DNA from: Tissierellia bacterium
GTDB lineage: Bacteria; Bacillota; Clostridia; Tissierellales; Tepidimicrobiaceae
DNA: 51,385 bases
Reading direction: 5' to 3'
Assembly: GCA_012735215.1 (NCBI GenBank)
Contig: JAAYHX010000012.1
Span: forward strand, 1-51,385
Of this stretch, positions 1 to 7,535 are shown one piece after another; position 1 is the first letter of the stretch, and each line of letters starts with the position of its first letter. The translations under genes and the position numbers were made by a program. Under the pieces are notes generated by a model, which made no database searches, had not been told where the DNA came from, and worked only from the letters and a program-made list of their open reading frames with translations.

Positions 1-43
1 TCTGCTTCGATTTCGTATGCTTTTTTGGGCGGTCGCTTGATGT
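1..43 (+). repeat. DGR variable repeat (VR), 3' part
   Basis: Bases 1-43 align without gaps to 208-250. There are 33 identities and 10 mismatches. Nine mismatches (VR 4, 11, 16, 22, 23, 31, 35, 38, 39) fall on an A in the downstream copy, and one (15) is T to G. Nine of 12 template adenines differ, against one of 31 other bases. The 5' part of the VR lies outside the window. The GC-rich stretch at 27-36 occupies the place expected for the initiation-of-mutagenic-homing element. Confidence 0.9.
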
Positions 44-51
44 ATTTGTAA
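1..51 (+). CDS. DGR target protein, C-terminal end only
   Basis: Only the last 16 codons and the TAA stop are in the window, so the protein cannot be named. The frame is chosen because it aligns codon by codon with the Asn-rich reading of the template repeat downstream (VR ...SYAFLGGR against TR ...SNANLGSH). A short C-terminal extension (Leu-Met-Tyr-Leu) follows the Gly-Gly-Arg motif. In known DGRs the variable repeat encodes the ligand-binding face of a C-type-lectin-like fold at the C terminus. In a phage the target is usually a tail or receptor-binding protein; that function is inferred here from position next to a lysis module. Confidence 0.8.
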   Translation, partial: SASISYAFLGGRLMYL

Positions 52-62
52 TATGACTTTTC

Positions 63-277
63 GGGTAATGGTTAAAATTAGCATGATAGAATTACACACA
101 AAAAGTAAGAAGATTATACTAATTTGAATACTTCTCACTTACCTAATTTCAGTAGTAATTGGAATAATGCTTCTAATACTGGTACTTTCAATCTTCATGT
201 GAATAATTCTACTTCGAATTCTAATGCTAATTTGGGCAGTCACTAAATGTTTTATTTAACCAATGCAACCATTACCC
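63..277 (+). repeat. 11-base inverted repeat enclosing the TR
   Basis: GGGTAATGGTT at 63-73, just after the target gene, is the exact reverse complement of AACCATTACCC at 267-277, just after the TR. A transcript crossing the region could close into a stem enclosing the whole template. A short TGGC-ACTC-GCCA hairpin follows at 279-290. Whether the pairing has a function is inference. Confidence 0.5.
121..250 (+). repeat. DGR template repeat (TR)
   Basis: The part proven by alignment to the VR is 208-250. The segment back to about 121 is assigned because, read in the same frame, it keeps the typical TR character: an unusual density of AAT (Asn) codons, with motifs such as SNWNNASNTGTFN, ending at a TAA at 244-246. 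Asn codons AAY are favoured in TRs because random replacement of their adenines gives wide residue choice without stop codons. The exact 5' limit cannot be set while the full VR is unseen. It is presumably the RNA template for the downstream reverse transcriptase and is not itself translated. Confidence 0.85.
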
Positions 278-2511: not shown

Positions 2512-2734
2512 TTGGAAACAGAAATTGACAAGCAGAAAATTTTGGGCAGCAGTCATTGGGTTTATCACTGCATTATTAGTTGCATTTGGTGTTGATGATT
2601 TAACTATTGAACAAGTTGTTGCACTTATAACAGCAGCTTCAACACTAATTGCTTATATTATAGGTGAAGGAATGGTTGATGCTGCAAGAGTTAATTCTCA
2701 AAATAAAGGTGATGATATAAATGAAAATAATTAA
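2501..2734 (+). CDS. Phage holin
   Basis: This 77-residue protein carries two membrane helices (about residues 13-30 and 38-56) separated by a short acidic turn (GVDDLT). The basic start, MKINWKQKLTSRKFW, is typical of small Firmicute holins. Holins form pores in the cytoplasmic membrane that let the endolysin reach the wall. The ATG at 2501 is chosen because AAGGAAGGTG lies at 2485-2494. It overlaps both neighbours (11 and 14 bases), so the lysis genes are translationally coupled. Confidence 0.75.
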   Translation: MKINWKQKLTSRKFWAAVIGFITALLVAFGVDDLTIEQVVALITAASTLIAYIIGEGMVDAARVNSQNKGDDINENN

Positions 2735-3677
2735 AAATCTTGTATCAACATCAAAATATAACATAAAATGTCCATATTCAATGAATGCAGAATTCATTGT
2801 TGTTCATAACACAGCTAATGATGCAAGTGCAAAAAATGAAATTGCTTATATGATTGGAAATAATAATCAAGTATCATTCCACTATGCAATTGATGATAAA
2901 GAAATTGTCCAAGGTATTCCTGAAAACAGAAACACTTGGAATGCAGGGGATGGTGGAAGTGGAAAAGGTAACAGAAAAGGATTATCCATTGAAATTTGTT
3001 ATTCCAAATCAGGTGGAAATAAATTCATTGAAGCTGAAAAATTAGCTGCAAAGTTTATTGCTTTTAAATTAAAAGAAAAGGGTTGGGATATAAGTAAAGT
3101 AATGAAACATCAAGATTTTAGCAAGAAGTATTGTCCACATAGAACCCTTGATATGGGATGGCAAAGATTTTTGAACATGGTACAATCAGAACTTAATTTA
3201 TTAAATAAACCTTCAACTGGATCATCAACTGAAAAAATTTTATATAGAGTTCAAACAGGTGCATTTAGTAAGAAGTCAAATGCAGATGCATTGCTTGCAA
3301 AAGTAAAAGCAGCAGGATTTGACACTTATATGGTTCAATCTAAAGATGGACTTTATAAAGTTCAAGTTGGTGCTTACAGTGTGAAATCAAATGCTGATGC
3401 TATGGCTAAAAAATTGAAAGCAAAAGGTTTCAATGTTTACATTACAACTGAATCAGGTTCACCAGTTACTTCTTCACCTGCACCAAAGAAAACATTGAAG
3501 GTTGGAAGTAAAGTAAAAGTCAAACCAGGTGCAAAAACTTATACTGGTGGAAACCTTTCAAGTTTTGTTTACAATACTGTTTATGATGTCATTCAGATCA
3601 GTGGAAACAGGGTTGTAATTGGTAAAGTAAAAGCAGTAACAGCAGCAATCCACAAAGATAATTTACTTGTTCAGTAA
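2721..3677 (+). CDS. Endolysin: N-acetylmuramoyl-L-alanine amidase with two SPOR repeats
   Basis: This 318-residue protein cuts the amide bond between muramic acid and the peptide stem. Residues 20-160 form an Amidase_2 domain with zinc-ligand motifs IVVHNTAND near residue 28 and KHQDFSKKYCPHR near 133. Two SPOR-type repeats follow (about 171-205 and 209-245, each starting YRVQ/YKVQ TGA/VGA F/Y S), which in this family bind denuded glycan. An SH3-like tail ends the protein at about 258-318. It starts inside the holin gene (14-base overlap) and is the last phage gene before host DNA. No signal peptide is seen, so export depends on the holin. Confidence 0.9.
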   Translation: MKIIKNLVSTSKYNIKCPYSMNAEFIVVHNTANDASAKNEIAYMIGNNNQVSFHYAIDDKEIVQGIPENRNTWNAGDGGSGKGNRKGLSIEICYSKSGGNKFIEAEKLAAKFIAFKLKEKGWDISKVMKHQDFSKKYCPHRTLDMGWQRFLNMVQSELNLLNKPSTGSSTEKILYRVQTGAFSKKSNADALLAKVKAAGFDTYMVQSKDGLYKVQVGAYSVKSNADAMAKKLKAKGFNVYITTESGSPVTSSPAPKKTLKVGSKVKVKPGAKTYTGGNLSSFVYNTVYDVIQISGNRVVIGKVKAVTAAIHKDNLLVQ

Positions 3678-3899: not shown

Positions 3900-4751
3900 A
3901 TGTTAGTTACAGGAAAAGAACTATTGGATCATGCTAATAAGCATGGCTATGCAGTTGGAGCCTTTAATGTAAACAATATGGAGATAGTACAGGCTATCAT
4001 TGAAGCGGCAGAAGAGACTAATTCTCCAGTTATACTTCAAGCTAGCCAGGGTGGAATTAAGTATGCAGGAGTTGAGTATATAGCACAATTGGGGAAGGTG
4101 GCTGCTGAAAAGGCAAAGGTTCCAGTAGCGCTGCACTTGGACCATGGTACTGATTTTCAACAGATAATGCTGTGCATAAGACATGGATTTACATCAGTTA
4201 TGATTGACGGTTCAAAATATCCATTAAAGGAAAACATAGATATAACAAAGAAGGTAGTGGAAGTTGCTCATGCTGTAGGTGTATCTGTAGAAGCAGAATT
4301 AGGTAAAATTGGTGGTACAGAGGATGACATAACAGTAGATGAAAGGGAAGCAACTTTTACAGATCCTGATGAAGCAAAACTATTTGTAGATGAAACAGGT
4401 GTTGATTCCTTAGCTGTAGCTGTAGGTACTGCTCATGGAGTCTACAAGGGAGAACCCAAAATAGACTTTGAAAGGATAAGAACTATTAAGAAATTGGTAG
4501 GTATACCCTTGGTACTACATGGCTCTAGTGGTGTGCCTGCAGAAGCTATAAAGAAGGCAGTGGAAGCTGGAATCAACAAGATCAACATAGATACAGACTT
4601 GAGAATAGCCTTTACAAAAGCTATGAAGGAATTCCTAAGGGATAATCCAGACAATATAGACCCAAGAAAGATACTTAATCCAGCAAGGGAAGCAATGAAG
4701 GAAGTCATCATAGAGAAGATGCATTTATTTGGTTCCAGTGGAAGAGCTTAA
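3900..4751 (+). CDS. fba: Class II fructose-bisphosphate aldolase
   Basis: The protein reversibly cleaves fructose 1,6-bisphosphate to DHAP and glyceraldehyde 3-phosphate in the cytoplasm. At 283 residues it has the normal length for the bacterial class IIB family. HLDHG at 79-83 supplies the catalytic Asp and a zinc His. Further zinc His residues are in TAHGVYKG near 178 and LHGSSGVP near 206, and NIDTDLR binds substrate phosphate. AAAGGAGGAAGG stands directly before the ATG. The transaldolase-like gene follows after 26 bases, and FBPase genes come next, so the cluster serves glycolysis and gluconeogenesis. Confidence 0.97.
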
Positions 4752-5447: not shown

Positions 5448-5475
5448 TTAACATTTGCTCCATTTGTCCTATAAT
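5447..5475 (+). promoter_or_regulatory. Sigma-A promoter for the first glpX
   Basis: TTTAAC at 5447-5452, a 17-base spacer and TATAAT at 5470-5475 lie 30 bases before the ATG. Confidence 0.6.
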
Positions 5476-5505
5476 AGAAATAGAAAAATTAAGGAGAGGT
5501 GGAGT

Positions 5506-6495
5506 ATGGATAGAGATTTGGCTTTATCGCTGGTGAGAGTAACGGAAATAGCTGCCATAATATCAGGTAGATATATGGGTAGAGGAGACAAGATAGGGGC
5601 AGACCAAGCAGCAGTAGACGGAATGAGGGCTGCTTTTCAGCTGGTGAAGACTAAAGGAGAGGTTGTAATTGGAGAAGGGGAGTTGGATGAAGCTCCTATG
5701 CTCTACATAGGAGAGGAAATAGGAAGAGATCTTAATGTGGAAGCAGATATTGCAGTAGATCCCCTTGATGGCACCACCCTAGTGGCAAAGGGACTTCCCA
5801 ATGCCATGTCAGTTATAGCCATGGCTCCAAGAGGATGCCTACTTAAGGCTCCAGATACCTATATGAAGAAGATAGCTGTAGGGCCAAGGGCTAGGGGTGC
5901 AATTAACATTGATGCTTCCCTAGAGGAAAACCTACACAAGGTGGCAAGGGCTCTCAACAAGAAGATATCTGACTTGACAGTTATAATCCAGGACAGGGAA
6001 AGGCATAAGGAATTAATTCAAGAGGTAAGAAGGATTGGTGCTAGGATCAAGCTCTTTGCGGAAGGCGACGTGGCAGCAGCCATTGCAACCTGTTTTGAAG
6101 ATACAGGGGTGGATATAATGCTAAACATAGGGGGAGCTCCAGAAGGAGTTATTGCAGCTGCAGCTATAAAGTGTATGGGAGGAGACTTCCAGGGCAAGTT
6201 GATGCCATCTAGCAAGGAGGAAATGGATAGATGCAGACAACTTGGTTGGACAGATGAAAGGCTAAGTCAGAATATGTCCATAGAAGATCTAGTCAAGGGA
6301 GAAGATGTATTTTTTGCAGCTACGGGAATATCTGATGGGGATCTATTAAAGGGAGTAGTATATTATGAGAACAAGATAGCAAAAACCCACTCGGTGGTTA
6401 TGAGAGCCAAAACGGGCACCATAAGATTTATTGAAGCCTACCACAGATTAAATAAAAACGATATATTGGTAGAACTATTGAGAAAACACAGGTAA
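5506..6495 (+). CDS. glpX: Class II fructose-1,6-bisphosphatase, copy 1
   Basis: The protein hydrolyses fructose 1,6-bisphosphate to fructose 6-phosphate, the committed step of gluconeogenesis. This 329-residue member of the GlpX family has the metal-binding motif DPLDGTT near residue 85, GEGELDEAP near 55 and the GGAPEG loop near 205. The ATG at 5506 (MDRDLALSLVRV) is chosen over an ORF extension to 5455, because AAGGAGAGGTGG precedes it and the start matches copy 2. A close paralog follows 68 bases downstream. The protein has a slightly longer C terminus than copy 2. Confidence 0.95.
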   Translation: MDRDLALSLVRVTEIAAIISGRYMGRGDKIGADQAAVDGMRAAFQLVKTKGEVVIGEGELDEAPMLYIGEEIGRDLNVEADIAVDPLDGTTLVAKGLPNAMSVIAMAPRGCLLKAPDTYMKKIAVGPRARGAINIDASLEENLHKVARALNKKISDLTVIIQDRERHKELIQEVRRIGARIKLFAEGDVAAAIATCFEDTGVDIMLNIGGAPEGVIAAAAIKCMGGDFQGKLMPSSKEEMDRCRQLGWTDERLSQNMSIEDLVKGEDVFFAATGISDGDLLKGVVYYENKIAKTHSVVMRAKTGTIRFIEAYHRLNKNDILVELLRKHR

Positions 6496-6563: not shown

Positions 6564-7535
6564 ATGGATAGAAATTTGGCTCTAAACCTAGTTAGGGTTA
6601 CGGAGGCGGCAGCCTTGGAAAGTGCCCGTCATCTAGGAAGAGGAGATAAAAACTTGGCTGATGGGGCTGCTGTAAATGGCATGAGAAAGATGTTTGATAC
6701 CCTTACCATTGACGGGGTTGTAGTCATTGGTGAAGGGGAAATGGATGAAGCTCCAATGCTATACATTGGGGAGCAAATAGGTAAGGCCACTCCAGGAAGT
6801 GTAAAAGTAGATATTGCAGTAGACCCATTAGATGGAACTACTGCTGTGGCTCAAGGAAAGGCCAATGCCATATCTGTAGTTGCTGTAGCACCAAGAGGAT
6901 GTTTACTTCATGCACCAGACATGTATATGAATAAGATAGCTGTAGGGCCAAAGGTAAAAGGAAAGGTCCATTTGGATATGCCTATAGAAGAGATCATAAG
7001 AAATACAGCAGAGGCTCTAAACAAGAGCGTATCTGATATTACTGTTACCATGCTTGACAGACCAAGGCATGAAAAATTGATGGAAGAGGTTAGAAAGGCT
7101 GGAGCAAGGATCAAGCTGTTCAAAGATGGGGACGTGGCAGCAGCTATTGCAACCTGTTTTGAGAATTCAGGGGTTGACATACTAATGGGAATAGGAGGAG
7201 CTCCAGAAGGAGTTCTTGCAGCAGCTGCTATTAAGTGTCTAGGAGGAGATTTCCAAGGAAGACTCCATCCATCTAGTGAAGAGGAAGTTGTAAGATGTAA
7301 GAATATGGGCATTGATTGTGTGGATAAGATATTTACCTTGGATGACTTGGTCAAAGGAAATGAAGTCATGTTTGCTGCTACAGGAGTTACTGATGGAGAG
7401 CTGTTAAAGGGAGTAGTTTATTACGAAAACAACAGGGCAAAAACCTATTCTGTAGTTATGAGGGCGGAAACGGGAACAGTTAGATTTATCGAGTCCATAC
7501 ACAGACTGGATAAAAAACCCGAGTATGCAAAATAA
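6564..7535 (+). CDS. glpX: Class II fructose-1,6-bisphosphatase, copy 2
   Basis: This second GlpX of 323 residues has the same motif order as the upstream gene (GEGEMDEAP, DPLDGTT, GGAPEG) and the same MDRxLAL start. The copies differ throughout, including in the connecting segments and third codon positions, so this is an old duplication. Copy 2 has AVNG and FTLDDL segments not present in copy 1. AGGGGGG stands before the ATG and a TATAAT-like box at 6534 suggests it may also have its own promoter. No residue of the catalytic motifs is lost in either copy. Confidence 0.95.
   Translation: MDRNLALNLVRVTEAAALESARHLGRGDKNLADGAAVNGMRKMFDTLTIDGVVVIGEGEMDEAPMLYIGEQIGKATPGSVKVDIAVDPLDGTTAVAQGKANAISVVAVAPRGCLLHAPDMYMNKIAVGPKVKGKVHLDMPIEEIIRNTAEALNKSVSDITVTMLDRPRHEKLMEEVRKAGARIKLFKDGDVAAAIATCFENSGVDILMGIGGAPEGVLAAAAIKCLGGDFQGRLHPSSEEEVVRCKNMGIDCVDKIFTLDDLVKGNEVMFAATGVTDGELLKGVVYYENNRAKTYSVVMRAETGTVRFIESIHRLDKKPEYAK

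Follow-up and report, generated by a model that had tools for sequence, protein, structure and literature searches.

Relation to described retroelements

Diversity-generating retroelements (DGRs) have been catalogued in numbers exceeding 30,000, and clades 1, 4 and 6 among them are described as phage DGRs, mostly with tail proteins as targets (Roux et al., 2021, PMC8144416). For the element of Bordetella phage BPP-1, a GC-rich hairpin is described within about 4-34 bp downstream of its variable repeat (VR) (PMC3240598). The spacer RNA of that phage is reported to fold, to recruit the bRT-Avd complex and to prime cDNA synthesis, with termination of reverse transcription ascribed to a motif that the avd mRNA carries within its 3′ end (PMC12875486).

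The DNA analysed here, referred to as the window, is a 51,385 nt stretch of a Tissierellia bacterium and begins with an element that can be compared with both groups; every feature of the element and its prophage described below lies on the plus strand. Like the phage DGRs of gut bacteria, it is phage-borne, has a tail-protein target, shows adenine-specific differences between VR and template repeat (TR) and has a reverse transcriptase (RT) gene nearby, but it differs from these in that its RT gene carries a premature stop and only the end of the VR is assembled. With BPP-1 it shares the order target, TR, spacer RNA and RT as well as the same type of 3′ difference between the repeats (IMH/IMH*, where IMH denotes initiation of mutagenic homing). 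However, unlike in BPP-1, no avd is present between VR and TR, which are separated by a gap of only 68 nt. The Avd-like Pfam family, which we take to be PF05635, was not detected among eight ORFs of the window and ten ORFs of three relatives, the rest of the phage being missing from the sequence. The hairpin of BPP-1 also lacks a counterpart of that kind, as no perfect stem of at least 5 bp with a loop of 3-10 nt was found in the interval running from 5 nt ahead of the VR end to 75 nt beyond it. A further possible difference from BPP-1 is a long-range helix that encloses the TR here. As to its kind, the element is an ordinary DGR, and what is worth following is this helix together with its tie to the RT-17 RNA. 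With high confidence, it is a DGR of phage type at the edge of a prophage, with a truncated RT, which most likely no longer diversifies its target.

The VR/TR repeat pair

A preliminary description of the window had reported an ungapped alignment of bases 1-43 with 208-250, with nine of ten mismatches at adenines of the downstream copy and one difference among 31 other positions. Realignment gave the same result, with the adenine mismatches at positions 4, 11, 16, 22, 23, 31, 35, 38 and 39 and the single non-adenine mismatch at position 15. The hypergeometric probability of at least nine of ten mismatches falling on the 12 adenines among 43 positions is 3.6e-6. When both strands of the entire window were scanned, the runner-up matched at 20 of 31 non-adenine positions, as against 30 of 31 at the pair itself. 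The homology stops at base 43 of the upstream and base 250 of the downstream copy. Positions 1-43 represent the last 43 nt of the VR, while the TR extends from about 112 to 250, its part at 208-250 being defined by the direct match to the VR and that at 112-207 by alignment with the TRs of relatives. Translated in frame the TR reads DYTNLNTSHLPNFSSNWNNASNTGTFNLHVNNSTSNSNANLGSH, and it is AAT-rich, as the preliminary description had expected of a template repeat. It ends 128 nt before the RT gene.

Relatives were collected by a search with the RT, which gave 33 loci in bacterial and archaeal genomes together with the best 80 of 111 in viral contigs (loci are numbered with the prefix L). All but one of these 113 (L106, a match of 50 residues) were scanned for paired repeats in the sequence preceding the RT, and an adenine-specific pair was present in 97 of the 112. 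Summed over these 97 loci, 2161 of 3318 adenines were changed and 48 of 7913 other bases, the latter being a lower bound since the counted pairs had been selected by a filter (at least eight adenine changes and at most four others). Over the last 43 nt, the rate of non-adenine mismatch is 26 in 1838 in the relatives compared with 1 in 31 in the window. The relatives have the same order of target gene, VR, TR and RT as the window, with repeat pairs of approximately 140-150 nt in most of the closer ones and of at least 100 nt in 59. When the last 15 nt are excluded, the VR base found at TR adenines is G in 935 cases, A in 844, T in 328 and C in 199. There are 27 pairs of loci with TRs at least 97% identical; their VRs are identical in four and differ in 23, at 8 to 25 adenine positions and 0 to 4 others. 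The adenine-specific pairs, together with loci that have the same TR but different VRs, identify the family as DGRs that have been recently active in the relatives, and the DGR reading of the preliminary description is upheld by them. No adenine-specific pair was obtained for 15 relatives; in nine of these the sequence before the RT is shorter than 450 nt (L075, L081, L095, L096, L103, L131, L133, L145, L155), while six lack a pair despite having more (L093, L104, L119, L150, L178, L182).

The similarity of the two copies could also be thought to arise by chance, or from a duplicated gene end lying beside the RT of a group II intron or retron. Only 43 nt can be aligned in the window and the RT does match the group II RT model TIGR04416, RTs of introns and retrons sharing the RT fold and the RVT_1 domain with it. 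However, this match of 108.2 bits is far under the cut-off of 300, with the RT as a whole lying far below the curated cut-offs for such enzymes, the mismatch pattern has the low probability given above, and adenine-specific pairs occur throughout the family. A reading without a DGR is refuted by these pairs of the relatives and can be regarded as next to impossible. In the DGR, the VR is a record of earlier rounds of diversification.

Homing motif and target gene

A difference between IMH and IMH* at the 3′ ends of the repeats is known from BPP-1. Comparison of the VR and TR ends of 59 relatives places a probable IMH at 34-43, at the end of the VR. Among the 59 longer pairs, 48 have a VR that closes with CG[CG][CT]T[GA]ATGT, and in 45 of these 48 the TR carries CA[CG] where the VR has an arginine codon (the exceptions being L084, L111 and L134). 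The other 11 longer pairs were compared by eye, and ten of them (all but L105) also have an arginine codon opposite CA[CG]. From this recurrence, the arginine codon opposite CA[CG] was taken as an IMH/IMH* difference, rather than a product of mutagenesis. As positions 35, 38 and 39 sit within this fixed difference, only six of the nine adenine mismatches serve as evidence of retrohoming; the view that the adenine mismatches are the mark of mutagenic retrohoming thus stands for six of them and has to be given up for three. Without these three positions, six of seven mismatches within 34 positions are at adenines (P 1.4e-4).

The VR forms the 3′ end of a protein-coding frame, which closes with a stop codon at 49-51. 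This is the 3′ end of the target gene, a tail fibre gene, at 1-51, which reads SASISYAFLGGRLMYL and the remainder of which lies beyond the contig edge. Its C-terminus, of the type RLM[YF]L, is shared with the target proteins of the six relatives viewed, and the whole target genes of three relatives match the tail protein family phrog_5302. In L109, the target is preceded by genes of a contractile-tail baseplate, among them those for a sheath initiator and Mu gp48. On the question of a C-type lectin fold in the target, an AlphaFold model of the C-terminus in a relative was poor (pLDDT 35.7), and the best PDB match of the target profile was the DGR variable protein TaqVP (5VF4), this being weak (E-value 0.29). 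With a working RT, the RNA of the TR would be copied with misreading of its adenines, and the cDNA would take the place of the VR with which the upstream tail fibre gene ends, so that the receptor-binding tip of the fibre would vary. The repeats, their adenine-specific differences, the gene order, the RT family, the RNA element and the conserved pairing are observed directly; the retrohoming mechanism is transferred from BPP-1, and the receptor-binding role of the target is a presumed one.

The reverse transcriptase gene and its premature stop

The preliminary description had an RT gene following the repeats. Such a gene is indeed present at 379-1140 (RVT_1, E-value 8.6e-20; phrog_1423, E-value 1.1e-94), but it is interrupted by an in-frame TAG at 1138-1140, which had gone unmentioned. 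The predicted product is 253 amino acids long, and with the stop at codon 253 of about 350 approximately the last quarter of the RT is removed. Beyond the stop the frame stays open for 98 codons (1141-1437) and encodes the conserved but unjoined C-terminal part of the RT, matching positions 358-449 of phrog_1423 (E-value 5e-21). Identity to the RT of L074 is 205 of 253 residues before the stop and 83 of 98 after it, with third codon positions 63% and 62% identical, respectively.

The nearest solved chain to the RT, as its best PDB match, is 8ub7_A, a chain of DGR type named only "Reverse transcriptase" in its entry and presumably the bRT of BPP-1. This match, the match to phrog_1423 and the repeat pairs of relatives with such an RT place the enzyme in the DGR family. 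In an alignment made with the RT of L109, the lost part corresponds to residues of this chain from about 249 onward, which comprise motif 7 and the thumb. An RT deprived of this part should not work. Since the region matching the C-terminus of the solved chain is lost, the element is most likely unable to diversify its target.

Among the relatives, the RT frame has 305-414 codons in 101 of 112; shorter frames are found in L137, which ends at 247 codons, and in L103 and L158, which run off their contigs. Where the window has its stop, an aromatic codon (W or Y) is found in 106 of the 112, and the other six comprise a histidine codon (L130), a contig end (L158) and four with matches ending elsewhere. 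No stop at the place of 1138-1140 was seen in any of the 112 that is readable there. An altered genetic code was considered for the window and rejected: TAG terminates tal, rho, prmC and other conserved genes of the window and is therefore an ordinary stop here. Read in the standard code, early or internal in-frame stops occur in the RTs of eight relatives (L144, L146, L147, L151, L152, L154, L155, L156); with the protein conserved, these perhaps belong to phages that recode a stop codon.

The stop is either recent, with the element silenced, or an error of sequencing or assembly near the contig edge. In the latter case, or if the stop were present in only part of the population, the DGR would still be active. 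The 98 open codons past the stop, as conserved as the part before it, fit such an error, as they would also fit a very recent stop or readthrough, the relatives look recently active, and a break of the assembly inside the VR would be expected if the VR differed between cells. Against this, no near-identical copy was present among the matches listed, the best being 81% identical (very near records were possibly omitted from them), and nothing was found that points to a sequence error. An active DGR is therefore considered a tenable though rather doubtful reading. A natural stop which is partly read through, or a C-terminal piece started near 1177, would give an RT that is made at low level or in two pieces. 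Both pieces are conserved and an ORF does begin with GTG at 1177, but a stop at this place was seen in 0 of 112 relatives, TAG is ordinary in the window, and a start near 1177 would skip conserved residues between 1141 and 1176; such an RT appears highly improbable. Barring an assembly error or readthrough at the stop, this copy of the DGR is thus probably inactive.

RT-17 RNA and the helix enclosing the TR

In the spacer between TR and RT, positions 273-360 match the RT-17 RNA (Rfam RF03020), narrowly passing its gathering score (41.8 bits against 40.4) and spanning the full model (positions 1-95 of 95). The RNA reportedly goes back to Weinberg et al. in 2017. In 20 relatives chosen by size, it was found in 17, each time directly upstream of the RT, and was not found above threshold in L099, L107 and L137. 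It follows a detected TR in 16 of the 17, with L075 having too little upstream sequence. Of 291 genomes of the class, six had an RT-17 match with an E-value of at most 0.001, and among these only the match of the genome studied here was above the cut-off. One of the others, L190, has an adenine-specific pair with changes at 15 of 28 adenines and 0 of 87 other bases; the remaining four genomes showed no pair in the orientation scanned, minus-strand loci having been kept in their given orientation. No paper treating the RT-17 RNA together with a reverse transcriptase was found in a partial coverage of the literature; the helix may already have been reported elsewhere.

Compared with the Rfam model, the RT-17 RNA of the TR-RT spacer is extended at its 5′ side by pairing with a sequence located before the TR. 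The 3′ strand of this helix, AACCATTACCC at 267-277, lies at the 5′ edge of RT-17 and is the exact complement of the 5′ strand, GGGTAATGGTT at 63-73 between the target gene and the TR, so that a helix of 11 bp is placed around the TR. The predicted fold of 55-378 contains this helix (z -3.31, with 0 of 100 shuffled sequences as stable). Relatives have helices at the corresponding place with other letters, examples being GGGCAATGG with CCATTGCCC, GGGCAACCAA with TTGGTTGCCC and GGCGGCAGA with TCTGCCGCC. In all, 38 loci (the window included) have a helix score of at least 23, representing 27 distinct helices, a number of different paired sequences that would be hard to explain without conserved pairing.

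The mean score of the best helix over 77 loci was 21.9, in comparison with 16.6 for swapped partners and 16.1 for shuffled sequence. When the 3′ strand was pinned to the start of RT-17, with identical flanks collapsed, close relatives kept and 56 of 98 loci set aside as having no strict start motif, at least 8 bp were formed in 24 of 33 loci, as against 10.7% of swapped pairs. Of 93 loci, 35 reached a score of at least 23 beside the TR, compared with one in a control segment taken from the target gene and two within the RT gene (Wilcoxon tests, 4e-14 and 2.5e-10, respectively). With one locus per cluster of 85% RT identity (68 kept, 66 testable), the counts were 23 versus one and two (Wilcoxon 5e-10 and 6e-7); all of these P values are too small, as the loci are still related. 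The other 58 of the 93 loci were below 23 beside the TR, and L148, L149, L157, L160 and L161 showed no convincing helix there. Seven loci with a start motif of Bacteroidetes type (L091, L094, L099, L163, L165, L168, L175), the first three of which are from Elizabethkingia and Chryseobacterium, have only 4-5 bp at this place, and each has a helix of 8 or 9 bp elsewhere beside its TR.

The helix might instead serve target recognition, with the spacer RNA pairing to DNA just downstream of the VR. The 5′ strand directly follows the target gene here and in many relatives, and in the window no perfect hairpin with a stem of at least 5 bp was found after the VR in the interval scanned. A distinction is possible at the 27 loci where the scored VR lies at least 200 nt away. 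Here the better helix is beside the VR in six, but it is beside the TR in 19, with two tied (related loci being counted separately), and most of the remote VRs are seen without the 5′ strand. Recognition of the target is consequently an unlikely role. As the better helix mostly stays with the TR where the VR is remote, it was taken as part of the template RNA, and conservation of pairing under changing letters suggests that it is probably a scaffold of that RNA in this type of DGR.

The helix 63-73/267-277 and RT-17 would accordingly hold the RNA of the TR (about 112-250) within a larger folded RNA. By analogy with the spacer RNA of BPP-1, we infer that RT-17 may be the part that recruits the RT and primes synthesis, while the 5′ helix strand could signal where copying stops. 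We tentatively suggest that a long-range helix of approximately 9-13 bp, which surrounds all of the TR and adjoins RT-17, might together with RT-17 load the RT, set the start and end of copying and take the place of Avd, although the odds are somewhat against so full a role.

Contig edge and prophage genes

The window comprises the entire contig C1 of a genome with 25 contigs and 1.89 Mb. Base 1 is the contig edge, for which reason the 5′ part of the VR is unreadable, and the DGR sits at the point where the incompletely assembled prophage is cut off. The break falls within the VR, where an assembler would be expected to fail if the sample contained a mixture of VR variants.

Searches of the whole genome and of its contig ends did not recover the remaining parts of the target gene and the phage. 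No VR was revealed when the TR (110-250) was compared without gaps to 46 terminal stretches of contigs C2-C25, overhangs past contig edges being left unscored; the highest agreement was 53 of 96 non-adenine positions, with the top value in each of the other stretches ranging from 43 to 50. The target protein of L109 matched only the TR itself in the whole genome, and the baseplate protein of L113 had no match there, an empty result which in this search shows little. The upstream ORFs of relatives gave six weak tblastn lines (24-33% identity) on three stretches at contig ends. An 18-bp match at C2:2297 was taken as chance, its stretch reading as ordinary chromosomal genes in translation.

Downstream of the RT, a small phage gene at 1439-1699 matches the profile phrog_18126 of unknown function. 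It directly follows the RT in the window as well as in the six relatives viewed (L074, L109, L110, L112, L113 and L121), and may either serve the DGR as an accessory or just be the neighbouring gene of the phage. The same prophage has a holin-like gene at 2501-2734 (phrog_297, E-value 2.1e-10) and an amidase endolysin with a SPOR domain at 2721-3677 (Amidase_2, E-value 3.2e-16; SPOR, E-value 8.5e-18). The endolysin gene is the last recognisable gene of the prophage and, as read from translations, chromosomal genes follow, with an fba-like gene at 3900. Two similar tandem genes at 5455-6495 and 6564-7535, whose translations resemble class II fructose-1,6-bisphosphatases (glpX), stand after fba and a transaldolase-like gene.

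In the wider group, 25 of 61 genomes (the present one included) have some match to the RT. The best of these besides its own is 56% identical, and phages, rather than descent within the host lineage, therefore probably account for the spread of the gene.

Significance

The DGR itself is one of very many known, and its truncated RT makes it a possible example of a recently silenced DGR of a prophage. Its possible importance lies in the helix, which ties RT-17 to the template RNAs of these elements. If this is true, RT-17 would acquire a role, that of forming the spacer portion of the template RNAs of DGRs, and a helix kept while its letters change would provide a testable model of how the template is held in DGRs in which no avd is detected.
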